In this document: piece after piece, positions 3,487 through 34,483 of the stretch
Layout of the letters: every line of letters starts with the position of its first letter
How positions within the stretch are numbered: the stretch's first letter is position 1
From: Pseudomonadota bacterium
GTDB lineage: Bacteria > Pseudomonadota > Alphaproteobacteria > UBA828
Length of the DNA stretch: 64,000 nucleotides
Direction: 5' to 3'
Assembly (NCBI GenBank): GCA_027624955.1
Contig: JAQBTG010000014.1
Location: forward strand, 1-64,000
Position numbers and translations under genes: made by a program
Notes under the pieces: generated by a model
The model's input: only the letters and a program-made list of their open reading frames with translations
What the model was told of the DNA's origin: nothing
Databases searched by the model: none

Positions 3487-4008
3487 ATGGCTAACCGTGT
3501 TGCCGAAGTGAAAGCGAGCACCTCCGTGCCGACCACCCACCCCTATGCCGTCGGCGAACTTGTGCTCGACGCGGTGCCGGAGGATGAGCGTCTGTGGGTG
3601 CCGATGGTCGAGGGCGTGTGGTTTCGCCCGCTCATGTTCAATACCACGCAGGGCGGTTGGTGCCATCTGATCCGGGTGCGTAAAGCCGGCGTGGTCAGCC
3701 GCCACCGCCATCCCGACCCAGTACATGGTTTAGTTTTGAAGGGCGCCTGGCGCTATCTCGAACATGATTGGGTGGCGACAGAAGGCACTTATATTTTTGA
3801 GCCACCGAGCGAGACTCATACCCTAGTGGTCGATGAAGGCGTGGCCGAGATGATTACTTTTTTTCAGGTCACCGGGTCGCTGCACTATGTCGACGAGGCG
3901 GGTAAGGCGATCGGCTTTGACGATGTCTTCACCCGCATCGACCTGGCGCGCGCGCATTACGAAGAAGTCGGCCTCGGCGCCGATTATGTCAGGAATTTTG
4001 TGCGCTAG
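3487..4008 (+). CDS. Cupin-fold protein, 2,4'-dihydroxyacetophenone dioxygenase-like
   Basis: A 173-residue protein made of one RmlC-like cupin domain. The metal-binding motif is visible as SRHRHPDPVHGLVL (about residues 71-84), with the second cupin motif EPPSETHTL near 105-113, so three or four metal ligands are present. Sequence style matches the cupin family that contains 2,4'-dihydroxyacetophenone dioxygenase and ChrR-like sensors; most members have no tested function. The ATG start has a good ribosome-binding site (TAGGAGA, 3473-3479). It is monocistronic and faces a leftward cyclase gene across a repeat array. Function as a dioxygenase is an inference from family resemblance only. Confidence 0.75.
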   Translation: MANRVAEVKASTSVPTTHPYAVGELVLDAVPEDERLWVPMVEGVWFRPLMFNTTQGGWCHLIRVRKAGVVSRHRHPDPVHGLVLKGAWRYLEHDWVATEGTYIFEPPSETHTLVVDEGVAEMITFFQVTGSLHYVDEAGKAIGFDDVFTRIDLARAHYEEVGLGADYVRNFVR

Positions 4009-4032
4009 GCTGTCGCTGGAGAGAACCAATTA

Positions 4033-4341
4033 AGATTTTCGCAAACGGCACCACTCCCGGAATGCCTTCGGCTTTCCGGCAAGCGCGACCGCCCGGTGAT
4101 TGAGGAAACCCACTGAGACTTTCGCAAACGGCACCACCCCCGGAATGCCATCAGCATTCCGGCAAGCGCGACCGCCCGGTGATTGAGGGAACCCATTGAG
4201 ACTTTCGCAAACGGCACCACCCCCGGAATGCCTTCGGCTTTCCGGCAAGCGCGACCGCCCTGTGATTGAGGAAACCCACTGAGACTTTCGCAAACGGCAC
4301 CACCCCCGGAATGCCTTCGGCTTTCCGGCAAGCGCGACCGC
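4033..4341. repeat. Tandem array of four 83-bp hairpin-bearing repeats
   Basis: Copies begin at 4034, 4117, 4200 and 4283, an exact 83-base period; the fourth diverges after 4341. Each unit starts GACTTTCGCAAACGGCACCA and contains an inverted repeat CCGGAATGCC-TTC-GGCTTTCCGG. The second unit has a different but fully paired version (CCGGAATGC, loop CATCA, GCATTCCGG, 4140-4162). There are no unique spacers, so it is not CRISPR. The array lies between convergent genes (cupin and cyclase). Small leftward open frames across it only restate the repeat. Confidence 0.9.
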
Positions 4342-4400
4342 GCGCCCGAGTTAATACGAGGTAGCCAAGGCCGCGGAGGCGGCCGCCCGGCGCTTGAGGG
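4282..4400 (+). repeat. Dispersed structured intergenic repeat, copy A
   Basis: The last 83-bp unit plus a tail to GCTTGAGGG at 4400 matches, in reverse complement, the sequence at 22111-22240. A 31-base stretch from CGCGCGCCCGAG through TACGAGGTAGCCAAG (from about 4339) is identical in both. The outer parts and the hairpin position also correspond. The two copies share the same kind of place, between convergent genes. The family is not one I recognise. Confidence 0.85.
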
Positions 4401-4445
4401 CTAAACAAAGAGACGCGCCCGCCCGGCGCCTGACGACCTAAACCA

Positions 4446-6215
4446 CTAAACCGGGAGGCCCGCTTTTAGCATGGTCTCACGCTGATGTTCGCGGTCCGAT
4501 TCCAGCTCGTAGGGTGCGCGTGCAAGCGCGGCTTCGACCGAAAACTCCGGATTGCTCTTGAGCACAAGTGCAATCTCCGCTTCTGCTTCCGCCACATTGC
4601 CAAGCGCAGCATAGCAGGCAGCCATATAGGCGCGTTGCATATGGCCGAGGCGGGGCGTGCGCTTGAATGCGTCGATGGCTTCTTGATATTGCCGCGCCAC
4701 ATAATGTGCCAGCCCTAAAACCTTGACCCGGCGCTCGGCTTCAGAGGGGTCGAGCAGCAGTGCTTTTTCGATCCAGCCGATGGCTTCGGTCGCCTGGCCC
4801 AGCCAGATGCGGGTTTCGCCACGTTGCGAAACAATGCGCGGATCGTTTGGGTTGAGCGCATAGGCGCGATCTTGATGAAGGCGCACTTTATTGAAATCCC
4901 GGTGTAAGACGAGGTTGAGCTCAGTTAGGATGCGGTGGCTCTCGGCGTCGTCCTTGGCGTTGTCGCTTAACGCTTTTTCGGCCTTGGAAATTCGCCTTAG
5001 GATGGTTTTCTCCTCGATATAGCCTCTGCCCCAAGCCTGGCCTAGGCTACAAGAGTACCAGGCATGCGCGAGGCTAAAATCGGGGTCCAGCTCGATCGCT
5101 TTTTGCGCCATCTCGATGGCTTTGGCGTTGTCCTCTGGGGTTTGCCTGTGGTGATGGTCCTTAGCGCGCAAGACATAGTCATAGGCGGCCATGTTCTCGG
5201 TCGGCTTCTGTTTGCTCTGCTCAAAATGCGCCGCTTCCACCCGGCGCGGCAGATTGGCGACGATGACCTGGGTAATTTCATCCTGCACCGCAAACACATC
5301 TTCTAGTTCGCGGTCATAGCGCTCGGCCCATAGATGATGGCCGTCCGCCGCGTCGACGAGCTGGACCGTGATGCGCACCCGGTTGCCTGCCTTGCGCACG
5401 CTGCCTTCGACGATGTAACGCACGCCGAGCTCGCGGCCCACTTCGGTCACATCGACGGCCCTGCCTTTATAGGCAAAGGTGGAATTGCGCGCGATCACGA
5501 ACAAATCGTGATAGCGCGACAGCTCGGTGATGATGTCTTCCGTCATGCCATCGACGAAATATTCCTGCTCCTCGTCCTTGCTCATATTGTCGAACGGCAG
5601 GACGGCGATGGTTGGTTTGGTCGGGCCGGTATTTTTGTTTTTTGCGACCGGGCTGGGCGAAACCGCCGCCGTCGCCGCCGAGCCTTCGATCGATTCCGAA
5701 ACGCGATAGGCGCGTACCGGCTCGTCGATATTTTTGACCGATCGGACGCCGAGATCGCTATAGGTGAGGTCAAGTTTGTTGCGCACCTGATCGTAGACGG
5801 TGCCGGAAATAAAGATGCTGTCCGGTTCGGCGATCTGTTCGAGGCGCGCCGCTATATTGACGCCGTCGCCGAGAATATCATCGCCGCTGACCATCACGTC
5901 GCCGAGATTAATGCCGATGCGAAAGCGCATACGGCGCTCCTCCGGCAGGTCGATATTGCACTTGGCGATGCCCGTCTGCATGTCGAGCGCACAGCGCACG
6001 GCTTCGACTGCGCTCGGAAATTCCGCCAACACGCTGTCGCCGCCGGTGGCGACAATGCGCCCGCCTTTCTCGGCGACCGCGCTATCGATCGTTAGGCGGC
6101 ACTGGCGCAGTGTATCGAACGTGCTTTCCTCGTCGGCGCTCATCATCCGGCTATAGCCGACCACATCGGCGGAGAGAATCGCAGCCAATCGGCGCTTGAT
6201 GACGTCAGATGCCAC
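4446..6215 (-). CDS. Class III adenylate/guanylate cyclase with TolB-like and TPR regions
   Basis: A 589-residue protein with a GTG start (6215). The N-terminal cyclase domain (about 1-175) shows the first metal site LSADVVGYSRMM, the second GGDSVLAEF, and the RIGINLGDV and GDGVNIAARLE motifs typical of catalytically competent class III cyclases. A linker is followed by a TolB/FlgO-like domain beginning IAVLPFDNMS (near 205) and including GVRYIVEGSVRKAGNR, then a C-terminal TPR-like helical region (about 335-589). This is a common proteobacterial architecture in which helical repeats probably sense or dock a partner. No membrane segment is obvious, so it is likely cytoplasmic. Product (cAMP or cGMP) and the input signal are not known. 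It is transcribed alone. Confidence 0.88.
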   Translation of the reverse strand: MASDVIKRRLAAILSADVVGYSRMMSADEESTFDTLRQCRLTIDSAVAEKGGRIVATGGDSVLAEFPSAVEAVRCALDMQTGIAKCNIDLPEERRMRFRIGINLGDVMVSGDDILGDGVNIAARLEQIAEPDSIFISGTVYDQVRNKLDLTYSDLGVRSVKNIDEPVRAYRVSESIEGSAATAAVSPSPVAKNKNTGPTKPTIAVLPFDNMSKDEEQEYFVDGMTEDIITELSRYHDLFVIARNSTFAYKGRAVDVTEVGRELGVRYIVEGSVRKAGNRVRITVQLVDAADGHHLWAERYDRELEDVFAVQDEITQVIVANLPRRVEAAHFEQSKQKPTENMAAYDYVLRAKDHHHRQTPEDNAKAIEMAQKAIELDPDFSLAHAWYSCSLGQAWGRGYIEEKTILRRISKAEKALSDNAKDDAESHRILTELNLVLHRDFNKVRLHQDRAYALNPNDPRIVSQRGETRIWLGQATEAIGWIEKALLLDPSEAERRVKVLGLAHYVARQYQEAIDAFKRTPRLGHMQRAYMAACYAALGNVAEAEAEIALVLKSNPEFSVEAALARAPYELESDREHQRETMLKAGLPV

Positions 6216-20427: not shown

Positions 20428-22083
20428 ATGCCAAACGATGGCAACGATGCGGTTGAACAGGTTGCGGATTACAGCTCCTTTGCCGCCGCGTTCAAGTTGG
20501 AGGACATCACCGACCTGCTTTCCGGCGATCTTGAGACCGGCCTGAATGTCTGCGTCGAATGCTGCGATCGCTGGGCCGAATCGGACAGCATCGCGCTCTA
20601 TTGGGAAGGCGCCGATGGCAGCAGTTCGACCCATAGTTTCGCCGAATTGCAGGAGGGCGCGGCGCGCTTCGCTAACCTGCTCACCGCGCAGGGCGTGCGC
20701 CCAGGCGATCACGTTGCTTGCATGCTGCCGCGCATTCCTGACCTGTTCGTGGTCGCGCTTGGCGTCTGGCGCGCCGGCGCGGTCTATGTCCCGCTGTTCA
20801 CCGCTTTTGGTCCCAAGGCGATCGAATATCGTCTAGAGCGGAGCGGAGCCAGCCTGGTGGTGACCGACGCGGTTAACCGGGCCAAGCTCGACGGCATCGC
20901 TGACGCGCCGCCGGTGATGGTGGTGACGCGCGAGCCGGAGGAGGCGGTGCGCGCTGGCGATATCGATTTCCGCCAAGCGCTCGCGGCGCAACCCACCGAA
21001 TTTGCGCCGGTTATGCGCACCGCCGAAGACCCGTTCATCATGATGTTCACCTCCGGCACCGTCGGTAGCGCCAAAGGCGTGGCGGTGCCGCTGAAAGCGT
21101 TGCCGGGTTTCTTGGTTTACATGAAGTATGCCATCGGCGTCGGCCCCGAGGACCGCTTCTGGAACATGGCTGATCCGGGCTGGGCCTATGGTCTCTTCTA
21201 TGCGGTCGCTGGGCCCATGCTCTTGGGCTACGCAACTCACTTTTATGAAGGCGGGTTCAGCGTTGAAAGCACATACAAGATGCTCGAAAAACACAGCATC
21301 TCAATCGTTGCCTCGGCGCCCACCGCATACCGGCTGCTGATGGCGGCCGGCGGTGACTCTGCCGATGCCTGCCGCCACAGCCTGCGCGCGATATGCAGCG
21401 CCGGCGAGCCGCTCAATCCCGAAGTGATCCGCTGGATCGACCAACATCTCGGCTGCCCGGTTTTTGATCAATACGGCCAGACCGAAACCGGCATGACAGT
21501 GTGCAATCACCACGGCTTGCGCCACGCCATGCGCCCCGGCTCCATGGGTCTGGCAATGCCTGGCTTCCACATGGTGGTCCTCAATGTCGACCTCGAGGAA
21601 GTCGCGCCGGGCGAGTCGGGAATGTTGGCCGTCGATACGACCAAATCACCGCTCTACACCTTCCAGGGCTACCGCGATCATAAGGAATCGCCGCTTAAGG
21701 GGCCTTACTACCTCACCGGTGACACCGCCGAGCTCGGCGCCAACGGCAGCCTGACTTTTCTCGGCCGCGCTGACGACATCATATTGTCTGCCGGATACCG
21801 CATCGGCCCGTTCGATGTCGAGAGCTGCCTGATCGAGCACCCGGCGGTCGCCGAATCCGCCGTGATTGGCAAGCCCGACACCGATCGAGGGGAGATCGTC
21901 GTCGCCTTCGTCGTACTGGGCGGCGGCCATAACGGCTCGCCTGAACTGGTGGAAGAGTTGCAGCAATATGCCCGCACGCGCCTCTCCGCGCATGCCTATC
22001 CGCGCCAAGTGATCTTCTTGGATGCCTTGCCCAAAACGCCGAGCGGCAAGATCCAGCGCTTCGTCCTGCGCCAACAAGCCTGA
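20428..22083 (+). CDS. AMP-forming acyl-CoA synthetase/ligase
   Basis: A 551-residue ANL-superfamily enzyme. Core motifs: P-loop MFTSGTVGSAKGVAVP (about 200-215), A5 DQYGQTETGMTVCNHHG (near 349), A8 ILSAGYRIGPFDVES (near 452) and A10 lysine in PKTPSGKIQRFVLR near the C-terminus. It activates a carboxylic acid via an acyl-adenylate and transfers it to CoA. The sequence resembles acetyl/propionyl or medium-chain and benzoate-type ligases; the acid cannot be decided. The ATG has a GGGGGAG ribosome-binding site. Likely co-transcribed with the FAD oxidoreductase before it. Confidence 0.86.
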   Translation: MPNDGNDAVEQVADYSSFAAAFKLEDITDLLSGDLETGLNVCVECCDRWAESDSIALYWEGADGSSSTHSFAELQEGAARFANLLTAQGVRPGDHVACMLPRIPDLFVVALGVWRAGAVYVPLFTAFGPKAIEYRLERSGASLVVTDAVNRAKLDGIADAPPVMVVTREPEEAVRAGDIDFRQALAAQPTEFAPVMRTAEDPFIMMFTSGTVGSAKGVAVPLKALPGFLVYMKYAIGVGPEDRFWNMADPGWAYGLFYAVAGPMLLGYATHFYEGGFSVESTYKMLEKHSISIVASAPTAYRLLMAAGGDSADACRHSLRAICSAGEPLNPEVIRWIDQHLGCPVFDQYGQTETGMTVCNHHGLRHAMRPGSMGLAMPGFHMVVLNVDLEEVAPGESGMLAVDTTKSPLYTFQGYRDHKESPLKGPYYLTGDTAELGANGSLTFLGRADDIILSAGYRIGPFDVESCLIEHPAVAESAVIGKPDTDRGEIVVAFVVLGGGHNGSPELVEELQQYARTRLSAHAYPRQVIFLDALPKTPSGKIQRFVLRQQA

Positions 22084-22110
22084 CCTAACGCGCAGCGCTT
22101 TTTATTTGAT

Positions 22111-22240
22111 CCCTCAAGCGCCGGGTGGTCGCGTCCGCTCTCTTGGCTACCTCGTATTAACTCGGGCGCGCGGTCGCGCTTGCCAAAATGCTGTAGGCAT
22201 TTTGGTTGGAGGTGCCGTTGGGGAGGGTCTTTCTGGGGTC
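22111..22240 (-). repeat. Dispersed structured intergenic repeat, copy B (inverted relative to copy A)
   Basis: From CCCTCAAGCGCCGGG (22111) through CTTGGCTACCTCGTATTAAC to the GGAGGTGCCGTTGGGGAGGG region, this is the reverse complement of 4282-4400. It includes a perfect nine-base stem CCAAAATGC-TGTAG-GCATTTTGG at 22183-22205. In copy A the corresponding stem reads CCGGAA.../...TTCCGG, so paired bases changed together. It fills the gap between the convergent ligase and flavin oxidoreductase genes. Confidence 0.85.
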
Positions 22241-22243
22241 CGC

Positions 22244-23347
22244 TCAAACGCCTTTGCGAAACGCCGCGCCGGGCCAGGTTTTGGGCCGGGCGCGGGCATA
22301 TTGTGGCGCGACGTCGAGGGAAACGCCGAGGCTGTCCGCGGCGTGCCAGGGCCAGCGTGGGTCATCGAGAACAGCGCGCGCGATGGCCACCATATCGGCC
22401 TGGCCTGAGGTGATAATCTCGTCGGCATGATGAGCGTCGACAATCAGGCCGACGGCCATGGTTGAAATACCGGTCGCGGCCTTAACCTCGGCGGCGAGCG
22501 CGACCTGATAGCCGGGCGCTAGCGGGATTTTCGACTTGGCGCTGTTGCCGCCTGAGGACACGCAGACAAAATCCATGCCGATATCCTTGAGCGCCCCGGC
22601 GAAGGCAATGGCGTCCACGGCGGTGATGCCGCCCTCCAGCCAATCTGTGCCGTTGATGCGGACGCCCATTGGGCGCGCCGCCGGCCAGGCCGCGCGCATT
22701 GCGGTGGCTACTTCCAGTGGAAAGCGCATGCGCTTTTCCTGACTGCCGCCATATTCATCCGCGCGTTTGTTGGCGAGCGGCGTGAGAAACTGGCTCAACA
22801 GATAGCCATGCGCGGCGTGAATTTCGATCAGATCAATCTCCAGGCGCGCCGCCCGCGCCACCGTTTGGGTGTATTCGCCAATCACCTTTTTCATGGCGCT
22901 CCGGTCGAGCGCTTCGGGTGTCTGCCAGTCGTCTTTATAGGGCTCGGGCGATGGCGCGATGCTGGGCCACACGCCCTCCGCCGCCGCCAGCGGCGCGCCG
23001 CCCTCCCACGGCCGGCGCACCGAGGCCTTGCGCCCGGCATGCGCCAATTGAATTCCGATCGGCATGGCGCTCCACGCTCGAACCGATTTGAGCGTCTCTG
23101 CCAGAGCCTGTTCGTTGGCGTCGTCATAAAGCCCGAGACAGCCTTGCGAAATGCGCCCGGCGGCGCTGACGGCTGTGGCTTCAATGATCAGACAGCCGGC
23201 GCCGGATTGCGCAAGTTGGCCGAGATGCGGCGTGTGCCATGAGCTGGCTGAGCCTTCCTTGGCGCTGTATTGGCACATCGGTGAAATGATCACCCGGTTG
23301 CTGAGCGTCAGGCCGCGCAGTTGAAGGGGGTCGAACAGAGCGGGCAT
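22244..23347 (-). CDS. NADH:flavin oxidoreductase, Old Yellow Enzyme family (YqjM-like)
   Basis: A 367-residue FMN ene-reductase. ATG 23347 (MPALFDPLQLRGLTLSNRV) is chosen over the longer frame because it has an AAAGGA ribosome-binding site and matches family N-termini. The conserved RVIISPMCQYSAKEG start of the barrel is followed by the catalytic HAAHGYLLSQFLTPLANKR and DEYGGSQEKRMRFPLEV segments, typical of the thermophilic-like/YqjM subclass. These enzymes reduce activated C=C bonds using NAD(P)H. It is divergent from the PhoX-like gene with only 58 bases between starts. Confidence 0.92.
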   Translation of the reverse strand: MPALFDPLQLRGLTLSNRVIISPMCQYSAKEGSASSWHTPHLGQLAQSGAGCLIIEATAVSAAGRISQGCLGLYDDANEQALAETLKSVRAWSAMPIGIQLAHAGRKASVRRPWEGGAPLAAAEGVWPSIAPSPEPYKDDWQTPEALDRSAMKKVIGEYTQTVARAARLEIDLIEIHAAHGYLLSQFLTPLANKRADEYGGSQEKRMRFPLEVATAMRAAWPAARPMGVRINGTDWLEGGITAVDAIAFAGALKDIGMDFVCVSSGGNSAKSKIPLAPGYQVALAAEVKAATGISTMAVGLIVDAHHADEIITSGQADMVAIARAVLDDPRWPWHAADSLGVSLDVAPQYARARPKTWPGAAFRKGV

Positions 23348-23405
23348 CGAGAAATCCTTTGTGGCTGGCTTGGTATTAAGCGCCGCAACTGTATCATGCG
23401 CTACG

Positions 23406-25376
23406 ATGAAGGCTAGATTCGGACAAGTGAACGGCGCGGCGGCGTTTGGCGATATGGCCTGCGCACGTATGACTCGTCGCGGCTTTCTCGGCGGCAGCCT
23501 CGCGCTCGGCGCATCCGCGGCATTGTGGCGAACGCCGGCCGGCGCCGCGACGCTGGGCTTCAATTTTGACCCCATCGGCCACGGTGTTGACGGGCACCAT
23601 CATGTCGCCCCCGGCCATAATGCGCGGGTGCTGATGCGCTGGGGCGACGGCGTGACGGCCACGGCGCCGCCCTTCGATCCAGAGCGCCAAAGCGCCGCTG
23701 CCCAGGCCGCACAGTTCGGCTACAACAGCGATTTTATCGGCTATCTGCCGTTGCCCCGCGGTTCGGGCAATTCGCGCCATGGCCTGCTCTGCGTCAATCA
23801 TGAATATTGCATCGAAGAACTGATGTTCCCCGAGCTCGGCCCCTATGACGAGAATTTCAGCCAGGCAACGCCCGAGCTCGCCAACATCGAGATGGCGGCA
23901 ATCGGCGGCGCCGTTCTTGAGGTGACGCGCGGCCCTGACGGGCTATGGAAGATTGTGCCGGCCAGCCGTTTCGCCCGGCGTATCACAGCGGGTGCAACCG
24001 TGATGCGGCTGTCCGGCCCGGCGGCGGGTCATGCCCGTCTCAAAACTACGGCCGACCCCAGTGGCGCCAGGGTGATCGGTACAGTCGCCAATTGCTCTGG
24101 CGGCATGACGCCATGGGGCACGTGGCTGACGGCAGAAGAGAATTTTCTGTATTGCTTCGGCAGCGGTATCTCCGACGACCCCGAGGCGGAGATCGACCCG
24201 GCGCTGGCAGATCACCCCGAGAGCCGGAATTATCGCCGGCTCGGACTTCCCGGCCGCGGTTACGCCTGGAGCCGTTTCGAAGCACGCTGGAACATCGATC
24301 AAGAGCCGAACGAAGCCAACCGCTTCGGCTGGATCGTAGAGATCGATCCTCTCGATCCGCATAGCATACCGGTCAAACGCACGGCACTCGGGCGCTTTAG
24401 CCATGAGGGCGCCGCACCAATCGTCAACGGCGATGGCCGCGTGGTCGTCTATTCCGCCGATGATTATTATTTCGAATATTTTTATCGATTTGTTTCGGAG
24501 CGCGCGTTCGATCCGGCGCGAGGTGTGGCGAACGGCGATCTCTTGGACCACGGCATCCTCTCTGTCGCCCGCATCGATGCGGACGGCGGCGTGGCGTGGT
24601 TGCCGCTGGTCTTCGGCCAAGGCCCACTGGTGCCGGAGAACGATTTCTATTCGCAGGCCGATATTGCCATCGAGACGCGCCGCGCCGCCGATCTCCTCGG
24701 CGCCACCCCGCTGGACCGGCCCGAGGGCGTTGCCATAGATCCGCGCGCGGCGCCTGACGGCGGCAAACTTTATCTCAGCCTAACCAAGAACGAACGCCGC
24801 GGCGCCGACCGGCTCGATGCGGTGCACAGCCGTTCGGCCAATCTGTGGGGACAAATCATTGAACTCACAGCGCCCGGTGGTGATCACGCCGCGGAGCGTT
24901 TCACCTGGGATATTCTGGTGGCCTGCGGCGATCCGGCGGCGCAAGAAACGGCGGCGCGTTGGCACGGCGATATCGCGCCGGGCGGCTGGTTTTCCTGTCC
25001 TGATAATTTGACGCTGGATAGCGCCGGGCGCCTCTGGGTGGCGACCGACCAAGGTGGCGGTTGGGCGGTATTGAGCGGCTCTGCGGATGGCCTCTGGGCA
25101 CTGCACACGCAGCACCCCCGGCGTGGCTTGGGTGCGATGTTTTTTCGCGCGCCGGTCGGGGCGGAAGTCGCCGGGCCGTGCTTCACGCCCGACGGTGAGA
25201 GCCTCTTCCTCAGCGTGCAGCATCCGGCCAAGGACGGCGCCAAAAACTATGCCGGGTTTGAGCGCGAATCGCGCTTCGCGGATGCGGCCACACATTGGCC
25301 TGATTTCGACCCGGCTATGCCGCCGCGCCCGTCGGTCCTTGCGATCACCCGCCAAGGCGGCGGGCGCATCGGCTAG
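23406..25376 (+). CDS. PhoX-type phosphatase (DUF839), Tat-exported
   Basis: The N-terminus carries a twin-arginine signal (MTRRGFLGGSLALGASAAL), so the protein is exported folded to the periplasm. The body is the DUF839/PhoX beta-propeller, with features such as LLCVNHEYCIEELMFPE, NCSGGMTPWGTWLTAEENF and RPEGVAIDPRAAPDGGKLY. PhoX enzymes are calcium/iron alkaline phosphatases. Start is uncertain: ATG 23406 is used, while ATG 23469 would begin directly at the Tat motif. Neither has a strong ribosome-binding site. It converges on gltB with 17 bases between. Confidence 0.85.
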   Translation: MKARFGQVNGAAAFGDMACARMTRRGFLGGSLALGASAALWRTPAGAATLGFNFDPIGHGVDGHHHVAPGHNARVLMRWGDGVTATAPPFDPERQSAAAQAAQFGYNSDFIGYLPLPRGSGNSRHGLLCVNHEYCIEELMFPELGPYDENFSQATPELANIEMAAIGGAVLEVTRGPDGLWKIVPASRFARRITAGATVMRLSGPAAGHARLKTTADPSGARVIGTVANCSGGMTPWGTWLTAEENFLYCFGSGISDDPEAEIDPALADHPESRNYRRLGLPGRGYAWSRFEARWNIDQEPNEANRFGWIVEIDPLDPHSIPVKRTALGRFSHEGAAPIVNGDGRVVVYSADDYYFEYFYRFVSERAFDPARGVANGDLLDHGILSVARIDADGGVAWLPLVFGQGPLVPENDFYSQADIAIETRRAADLLGATPLDRPEGVAIDPRAAPDGGKLYLSLTKNERRGADRLDAVHSRSANLWGQIIELTAPGGDHAAERFTWDILVACGDPAAQETAARWHGDIAPGGWFSCPDNLTLDSAGRLWVATDQGGGWAVLSGSADGLWALHTQHPRRGLGAMFFRAPVGAEVAGPCFTPDGESLFLSVQHPAKDGAKNYAGFERESRFADAATHWPDFDPAMPPRPSVLAITRQGGGRIG

Positions 25377-34443: not shown

Positions 34444-34483
34444 GCCACGCGACGTCTAAGCCGCGCCTAAACGGCGCGATGAT

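Follow-up and report, generated by a model that had tools for sequence, protein, structure and literature searches.

The repeat at positions 22111-22240 of the window, by which we mean the whole 64,000-nucleotide stretch of DNA that was analysed, is a copy of an interspersed family of four-hairpin repeats found across the Alphaproteobacteria, which is most likely non-autonomous mobile DNA of a REP- or BIME-like kind. Each element measures about 110-150 bases and consists of four hairpins (H1-H4) in a fixed order, joined by conserved linkers and capped by conserved loops. Across the class the stems are rewritten on both arms, and the loops and linkers persist.

Architecture of the element and its copies in the window

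Read with CCCTCA first (orientation A), the element follows the plan T-tract, CCCTCA-NN-CGCCGGGCG, H1, TTGGCT, H2, H3, TTGC, H4 and tail, in which the loop of H1 is NTCC, that of H2 is often ATAA, that of H3 is mostly NGTC and that of H4 is free. Positions -12 to -4 before CCCTCA are 43-72% T in a set of 225 copies. The parts of the window copy, together with the related features and flanking genes, are listed in Table 1.

Table 1. Positions of the repeat, its parts and neighbouring features in the window.
Feature	Positions	Strand	Remarks
Element's T-tract TTTTTATTT, preceding CCCTCA	22099..22107	+	missing from empty orthologous sites
Conserved core (positions 1-74 of covariance model R1)	22110..22183	+	R1 match, 95.8 bits
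Leader CCCTCA-AGC-GCCGGGT	22111..22126	+	near-invariant columns, alignment A3
H1 GGTCGC-GTCC-GCTCTC	22127..22142	+	TC/TC mismatch type; covarying stem
Linker TTGGCT	22143..22148	+	near-invariant in A3, persists in distant copies
H2 CCTCGT-ATTA-ACTCGG	22150..22165	+	innermost pair covaries U-A/C-G; 6-7 bp stems in distant copies
H3 GCGC-GGTC-GCGC	22168..22179	+	two covarying pairs
H4 CCAAAATGC-TGTAG-GCATTTTGG	22183..22205	+	hairpin named in the sequence-only reading; alignment, genus variants
Tail TTGGAGGTGCCGTTGG...	22206..22241	+	reaches stop of convergent gene at 22244; common to many genus copies
Second full copy (array tail)	4282..4401	-	core 4328-4401; R1 match, 101.6 bits
Short 83-base units, three in tandem	4032..4281	-	without the segment from the H1 3' side to H2; sequence, partial matches
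Empty site in a short gap flanked by convergent genes	34444..34483	.	relatives L031 and L100 carry the element here
ChrR-type cupin gene	3487-4008	+	convergent pair around array-tail copy
Cyclase-TPR protein gene	4446-6215	-	convergent pair around array-tail copy
AMP-binding ligase gene	20428-22083	+	convergent pair around 22111 copy
FMN oxidoreductase gene	22244-23575	-	convergent pair around 22111 copy

A sequence-only reading had described 22111-22240 as an inverted copy of 4282-4400, and local alignment of its reverse complement bears this out, with 100 of 119 aligned bases identical and one gap; the match reaches E = 4e-29 in a whole-genome blastn search, where it is one of 29, and is thus far above chance. 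The identical core proposed there is real, its length being not 31 bases but 43 (22142-22184, corresponding to 4327-4369). The change of the H4 stem from GG/CC to AA/TT likewise stands; the nine pairs thought to be kept in both copies are exact only for the 22111 copy (CCAAAATGC/GCATTTTGG, 9/9) and the genus consensus, the array-tail copy (CCGGAATGC/GCTTTCCGG) forming 8/9 with one T.T. Both copies do lie between convergent genes, as had been pointed out, and these genes are functionally ordinary. The 83-base units are missing what lies between two GCGGTCGCG repeats, a loss that would be accounted for by a deletion from one repeat to the other.

Other sequences accompany the element at particular loci. 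A hairpin, AACGGGTCATNNNNATGACCCGTT, stands directly 5' of the copies at L013, L017, L036, L042, L050, L052, L058, L071, L121 and others, forming an alternative 5' module of many genus copies, in which H4 is often longer. An extra CACATGACTCC-like segment lies between H1 and the H2 core at L019, L017, L021, L024, L031, L050, L066, L070 and L091, a variant present in several genomes. At L002, L005, L010 and L023 a second repeat family with CTTCTCCCCAACCCCTCTTCCC adjoins the copies upstream of the T-tract, and GTCATCCCGGCGAAGGCCGGGATC palindromes, similar to CGTC REPs, adjoin some copies at L238-L241 (genomes G064 and G183). In the Sphingomonadales loci L190 and L117 the element, or part of it, is found directly 3' of a tRNA gene, with a T-arm-like H4 (GAACCC/GGGTTC).

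Distribution, gene context and turnover

A genome-wide count, suggested by the sequence-only reading, gives about 29 copies of a repeat family: in the 3.58-Mb genome to which the window belongs, blastn with the 130-base query finds 29 matches, and R1, a covariance model of the 74-base core whose E-values are rough, also finds 29, diverged copies included. Among the five congeners searched, four marine MAGs (G001-G004: JAPYQV01, JABIXB01, CAJXFT01 and PTKB01 (MarineAlpha10_Bin2)) carry 85, 82, 104 and 11 copies, and one, G005, gave no match; as the genomes are mostly MAGs, copy counts are lower bounds. Of the 386 alphaproteobacterial genomes sampled, 43 contain R1 matches, representing 32 of 275 genera. 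A phylum-wide sample yielded matches in 18 of 398 genomes, 17 of them Alphaproteobacteria and one, borderline, outside the class, and a pattern scan of GTDB r220 returned alphaproteobacterial records only, including the Sphingomonadales isolates Pontixanthobacter, Croceicoccus and Sphingomonas. Plasmids and phages gave no blastn match to the element, and carriage by either was rejected. Copies form tandem and inverted arrays, close pairs being mostly tandem (15/21). Inverted doublets facing each other, as in REPINs, are seen in Sphingomonadales at L046, L057 and L088, and some copies are found at contig ends.

The proposed enrichment between convergent genes is supported. In the window's own genome, with gene calls on 827 kb including the window and gaps of at least 60 bp as background, convergent genes flank 12 of the 17 copies that could be scored, compared with 45 of 336 other gaps (13%; Fisher odds ratio 15.5, p = 3.5e-7), and at the relatives' loci this is the case for 35 of 72 copies against 27 of 214 gaps (odds ratio 6.6, p = 2.5e-9), both p-values being optimistic since orthologous sites are partly shared. 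In the case of two unrelated genomes taken jointly, 7 of 19 copies are convergent against 24 of 167 gaps (odds ratio 3.5, p = 0.02), an enrichment carried by G188 (6/13) and absent from G252 (1/6); here regions of 20 kb were used because genes cannot be called reliably on the short, 3-kb distant loci (19 'genic' calls). Few copies occupy divergent sites.

Comparison of flanks between relatives and the window's genome reveals presence or absence at orthologous sites, as is generally expected of mobile repeats. At many sites one species carries the element where the other has an empty gap; at L071, compared with L151, the gap of the window's genome leaves only a few bases between the stop codons, and at the L165 site the two genomes carry copies in opposite orientation. 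The empty sites that were read have neither the T-tract nor the hairpin that stands upstream of it in some copies. The suggestion that the element is mobile is in keeping with this gain or loss, either of which may apply at a given orthologous site; no transposition event was observed. One possible target duplication, AGAGCG, was seen (L090 against L165) among filled and empty pairs that are much diverged, and no terminal inverted repeats are evident in the element.

Pairing of the stems and origin of the compensatory changes

Over 77 different cores of 74 bases, 94% of cells are paired in the named structure, against 88% in shuffled and 30-53% in slid controls; cells changed on both sides number 79 against 20 when shuffled, and the covariation score is 0.173 against 0.059, attained in 0 of 500 shuffles of a control that ignores relatedness. 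The H1 stems of distant genomes comprise 39 distinct arm pairs, which are 88.6% Watson-Crick, against 50.3% with arms exchanged between copies, and H2 becomes a fully paired stem of 6-7 bp in many distant copies, such as CGCGCC-ATAA-GGCGCG. On either strand of the window copy, stability relative to shuffled sequence (z about -1.5 and -1.8) is below that of L265 (z = -3.8), and the RNA fold of lowest energy differs from the four-hairpin structure. Within the genus, H4 is CCGGAATGC/GCATTCCGG in 78 copies, CCAGAATGC/GCATTCTGG in six and CCAAAATGC/GCATTTTGG in one, the window copy, so that the kind of compensatory change first noticed there recurs; both-arm changes in H1 as well as H4 agree with the expectation that more copies should show them.

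A structured non-coding RNA would likewise combine covarying stems with conserved loops and linkers, as would an mRNA 3'-end element that is transcribed together with the gene upstream and stabilises or terminates transcripts; the stems would then be under selection as RNA. The position of copies 3' of genes, the T-tract, the hairpin that abuts it in a minority of copies (16% against 4% in shuffles) and the fold of L265 alone into H1-H4 (z = -3.8) are in line with such a role, which we nevertheless regard as unlikely. In H1, G.U pairs are scarce and do not outnumber A.C (5 against 11 altogether), which gives no sign of wobble at the RNA level and assigns no clear strand. A consensus scan of 21900-22400 found no intrinsic terminator, and a terminator at the window copy was rejected; with the orientation of copies relative to tandem genes mixed and only a minority pairing a hairpin with a T-tract, the termination role that had been proposed is not supported. 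A role in supercoil control, also suggested in the sequence-only reading, is likewise not supported. No consensus promoter was found at the window copy, Rfam covariance models gave nothing at the window copies and nothing at threshold at the elements, and presence is patchy even at orthologous sites. Among 19 loci there was one sub-threshold match to the Twister-sister ribozyme, on the opposite strand of L190 (29.4 bits against a threshold of 34); no other copy gave it, and it was set aside as chance.

The both-arm changes could also have arisen by template switching between the palindrome arms during replication, or by conversion from other copies, with pairing itself not selected. Template switching makes multi-base compensatory changes (PMC8794818), which is in keeping with the scarcity of G.U intermediates in H1 and with one orthologous gap (L172) where three species carry GGCCGC/GCTCTC, GGGGGC/GCCCCC and GCGCGC/GCGCGC, multi-base blocks that differ together; these are block changes, not steps. 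Mismatched variants persist, however, the TC/TC type of H1 making up more than 40% of genus copies, so that pairing is not strictly enforced; H4 has single-arm intermediates (CCGAAATGC/GCATTCCGG and CCGGAAAGC/GCATTCCGG), and the conserved loops and linkers would still need selection or recent common descent. We consider this origin of the changes possible rather than probable; it covers compensation only and can be combined with a mobile repeat. The compensatory change is real, but its cause may be template switching or conversion between copies and not selection acting on RNA.

Mobilisers, known repeat families and significance

No Y1_Tnp gene was found in the window's own genome, and the 21 genomes of the family hold one, in the congener G003 (L145:472-792, G003:C55), beside an unrelated GTATACTGTCCCC repeat; as far as was read, the element is not at the ends of this gene. 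The GTATACTGTCCCCATAATT repeat beside the same gene also adjoins some element copies, for example the L030 tail, and resembles the terminal inverted repeats with a GGGGWSAS motif of other tyrosine transposases (PMC3733652). Over the class sample, a Y1 gene is present in 11 of the 43 genomes that carry the element and in 63 of the 343 that do not (p = 0.30), and a RAYT-type transposase is missing from 32 of the 43, so that RAYT is not required for the presence of the element now. A RAYT or Y1 transposase, missing or unassociated in the own genome, the genus, the family and the class sample, was therefore rejected as the mobiliser, and the RAYT-like gene anticipated by the sequence-only reading did not materialise; a lost or different enzyme is possible. 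Intergenic hairpin repeats in tandem and inverted arrays, as in BIMEs, and the Y1 gene of G003 might still be taken to indicate a REP or REPIN system proper, moved by a RAYT (a Y1 HUH transposase) that was lost from the own genome, but given the rarity of Y1 genes in the family, their lack of association in the class and the unrelated repeat beside the G003 gene, we hold this to be very unlikely.

REP, BIME and REPIN elements with their RAYT are short, palindromic, intergenic and multi-copy, with complementary stem mutations, and occur as monomers and multimers in arrays (PMC2817692, PMC3116915). The element shares the short palindromic form, intergenic sites, copy number, both-arm stem changes and arrays; it differs in that a set succession of four hairpins takes the place of the single tagged palindrome, loops and linkers are conserved across the class, and there is no RAYT. 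Neither a RAYT flanked by the repeat nor a single palindrome of 20-40 bases with a GTAG/GTGG-like head, the marks of GTAG-type REPs, was found; GGTAG is confined to H2 of genus copies, where it lies on the opposite strand, and is not retained in distant ones. The CGTC REPs are mostly alphaproteobacterial, have no known dedicated transposase and lie mainly between convergent and unidirectional genes, each being a single palindrome with an 8-9 bp stem, a CGTC head and a CCA-like tail, mainly in head-to-head dimers (PMC3733652). The host range, the lack of a known transposase and the convergent-gene sites are common to both; the plan is different, as the element has a core of 74 bases before H4, with neither CGTC head nor CCA-like tail, and its close pairs are mostly tandem. 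MITEs are similar in being non-autonomous, about 100-200 bases long and present or absent between relatives; terminal inverted repeats or a clear target duplication were not seen in the element. RIME and the ABC-type rhizobial intergenic mosaic elements are alphaproteobacterial too, of some 100 bases, intergenic and mosaic with several palindromes, and are not known to share its core sequence. The core sequence strings were not found in a literature search of incomplete coverage, and the family is therefore only provisionally called undescribed.

All together, we favour non-autonomous mobile DNA that would work like REPs, BIMEs and REPINs. Its spread would depend on an enzyme supplied in trans, which would recognise hairpins of single-stranded DNA by their conserved loops and linkers. 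Copies would survive mainly 3' of genes because insertions in promoters and coding sequences are purged by selection. Conversion among copies, or template switching from one palindrome arm to the other, would renew part of the stem identity, and 'compensatory' changes would then not have to arise step by step. Effects on mRNA 3' ends, if any, would be secondary, and any host function is putative.

Should such DNA be recognised by its shape, through a set order of four hairpins whose loops are constant and whose stem sequences are mostly unconstrained, and be moved by an enzyme other than RAYT, it would constitute a new hairpin-recognising mobility system of the Alphaproteobacteria, a proposal that we make tentatively. 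The element can mislead searches for non-coding RNAs and break short-read assemblies. As a structurally defined repeat family in about 30 sampled alphaproteobacterial genera, outside Rfam and without the expected transposase, it makes testable whether hairpin repeats can spread without RAYT and whether stem covariation stems from selection on structure or from template switching and conversion.
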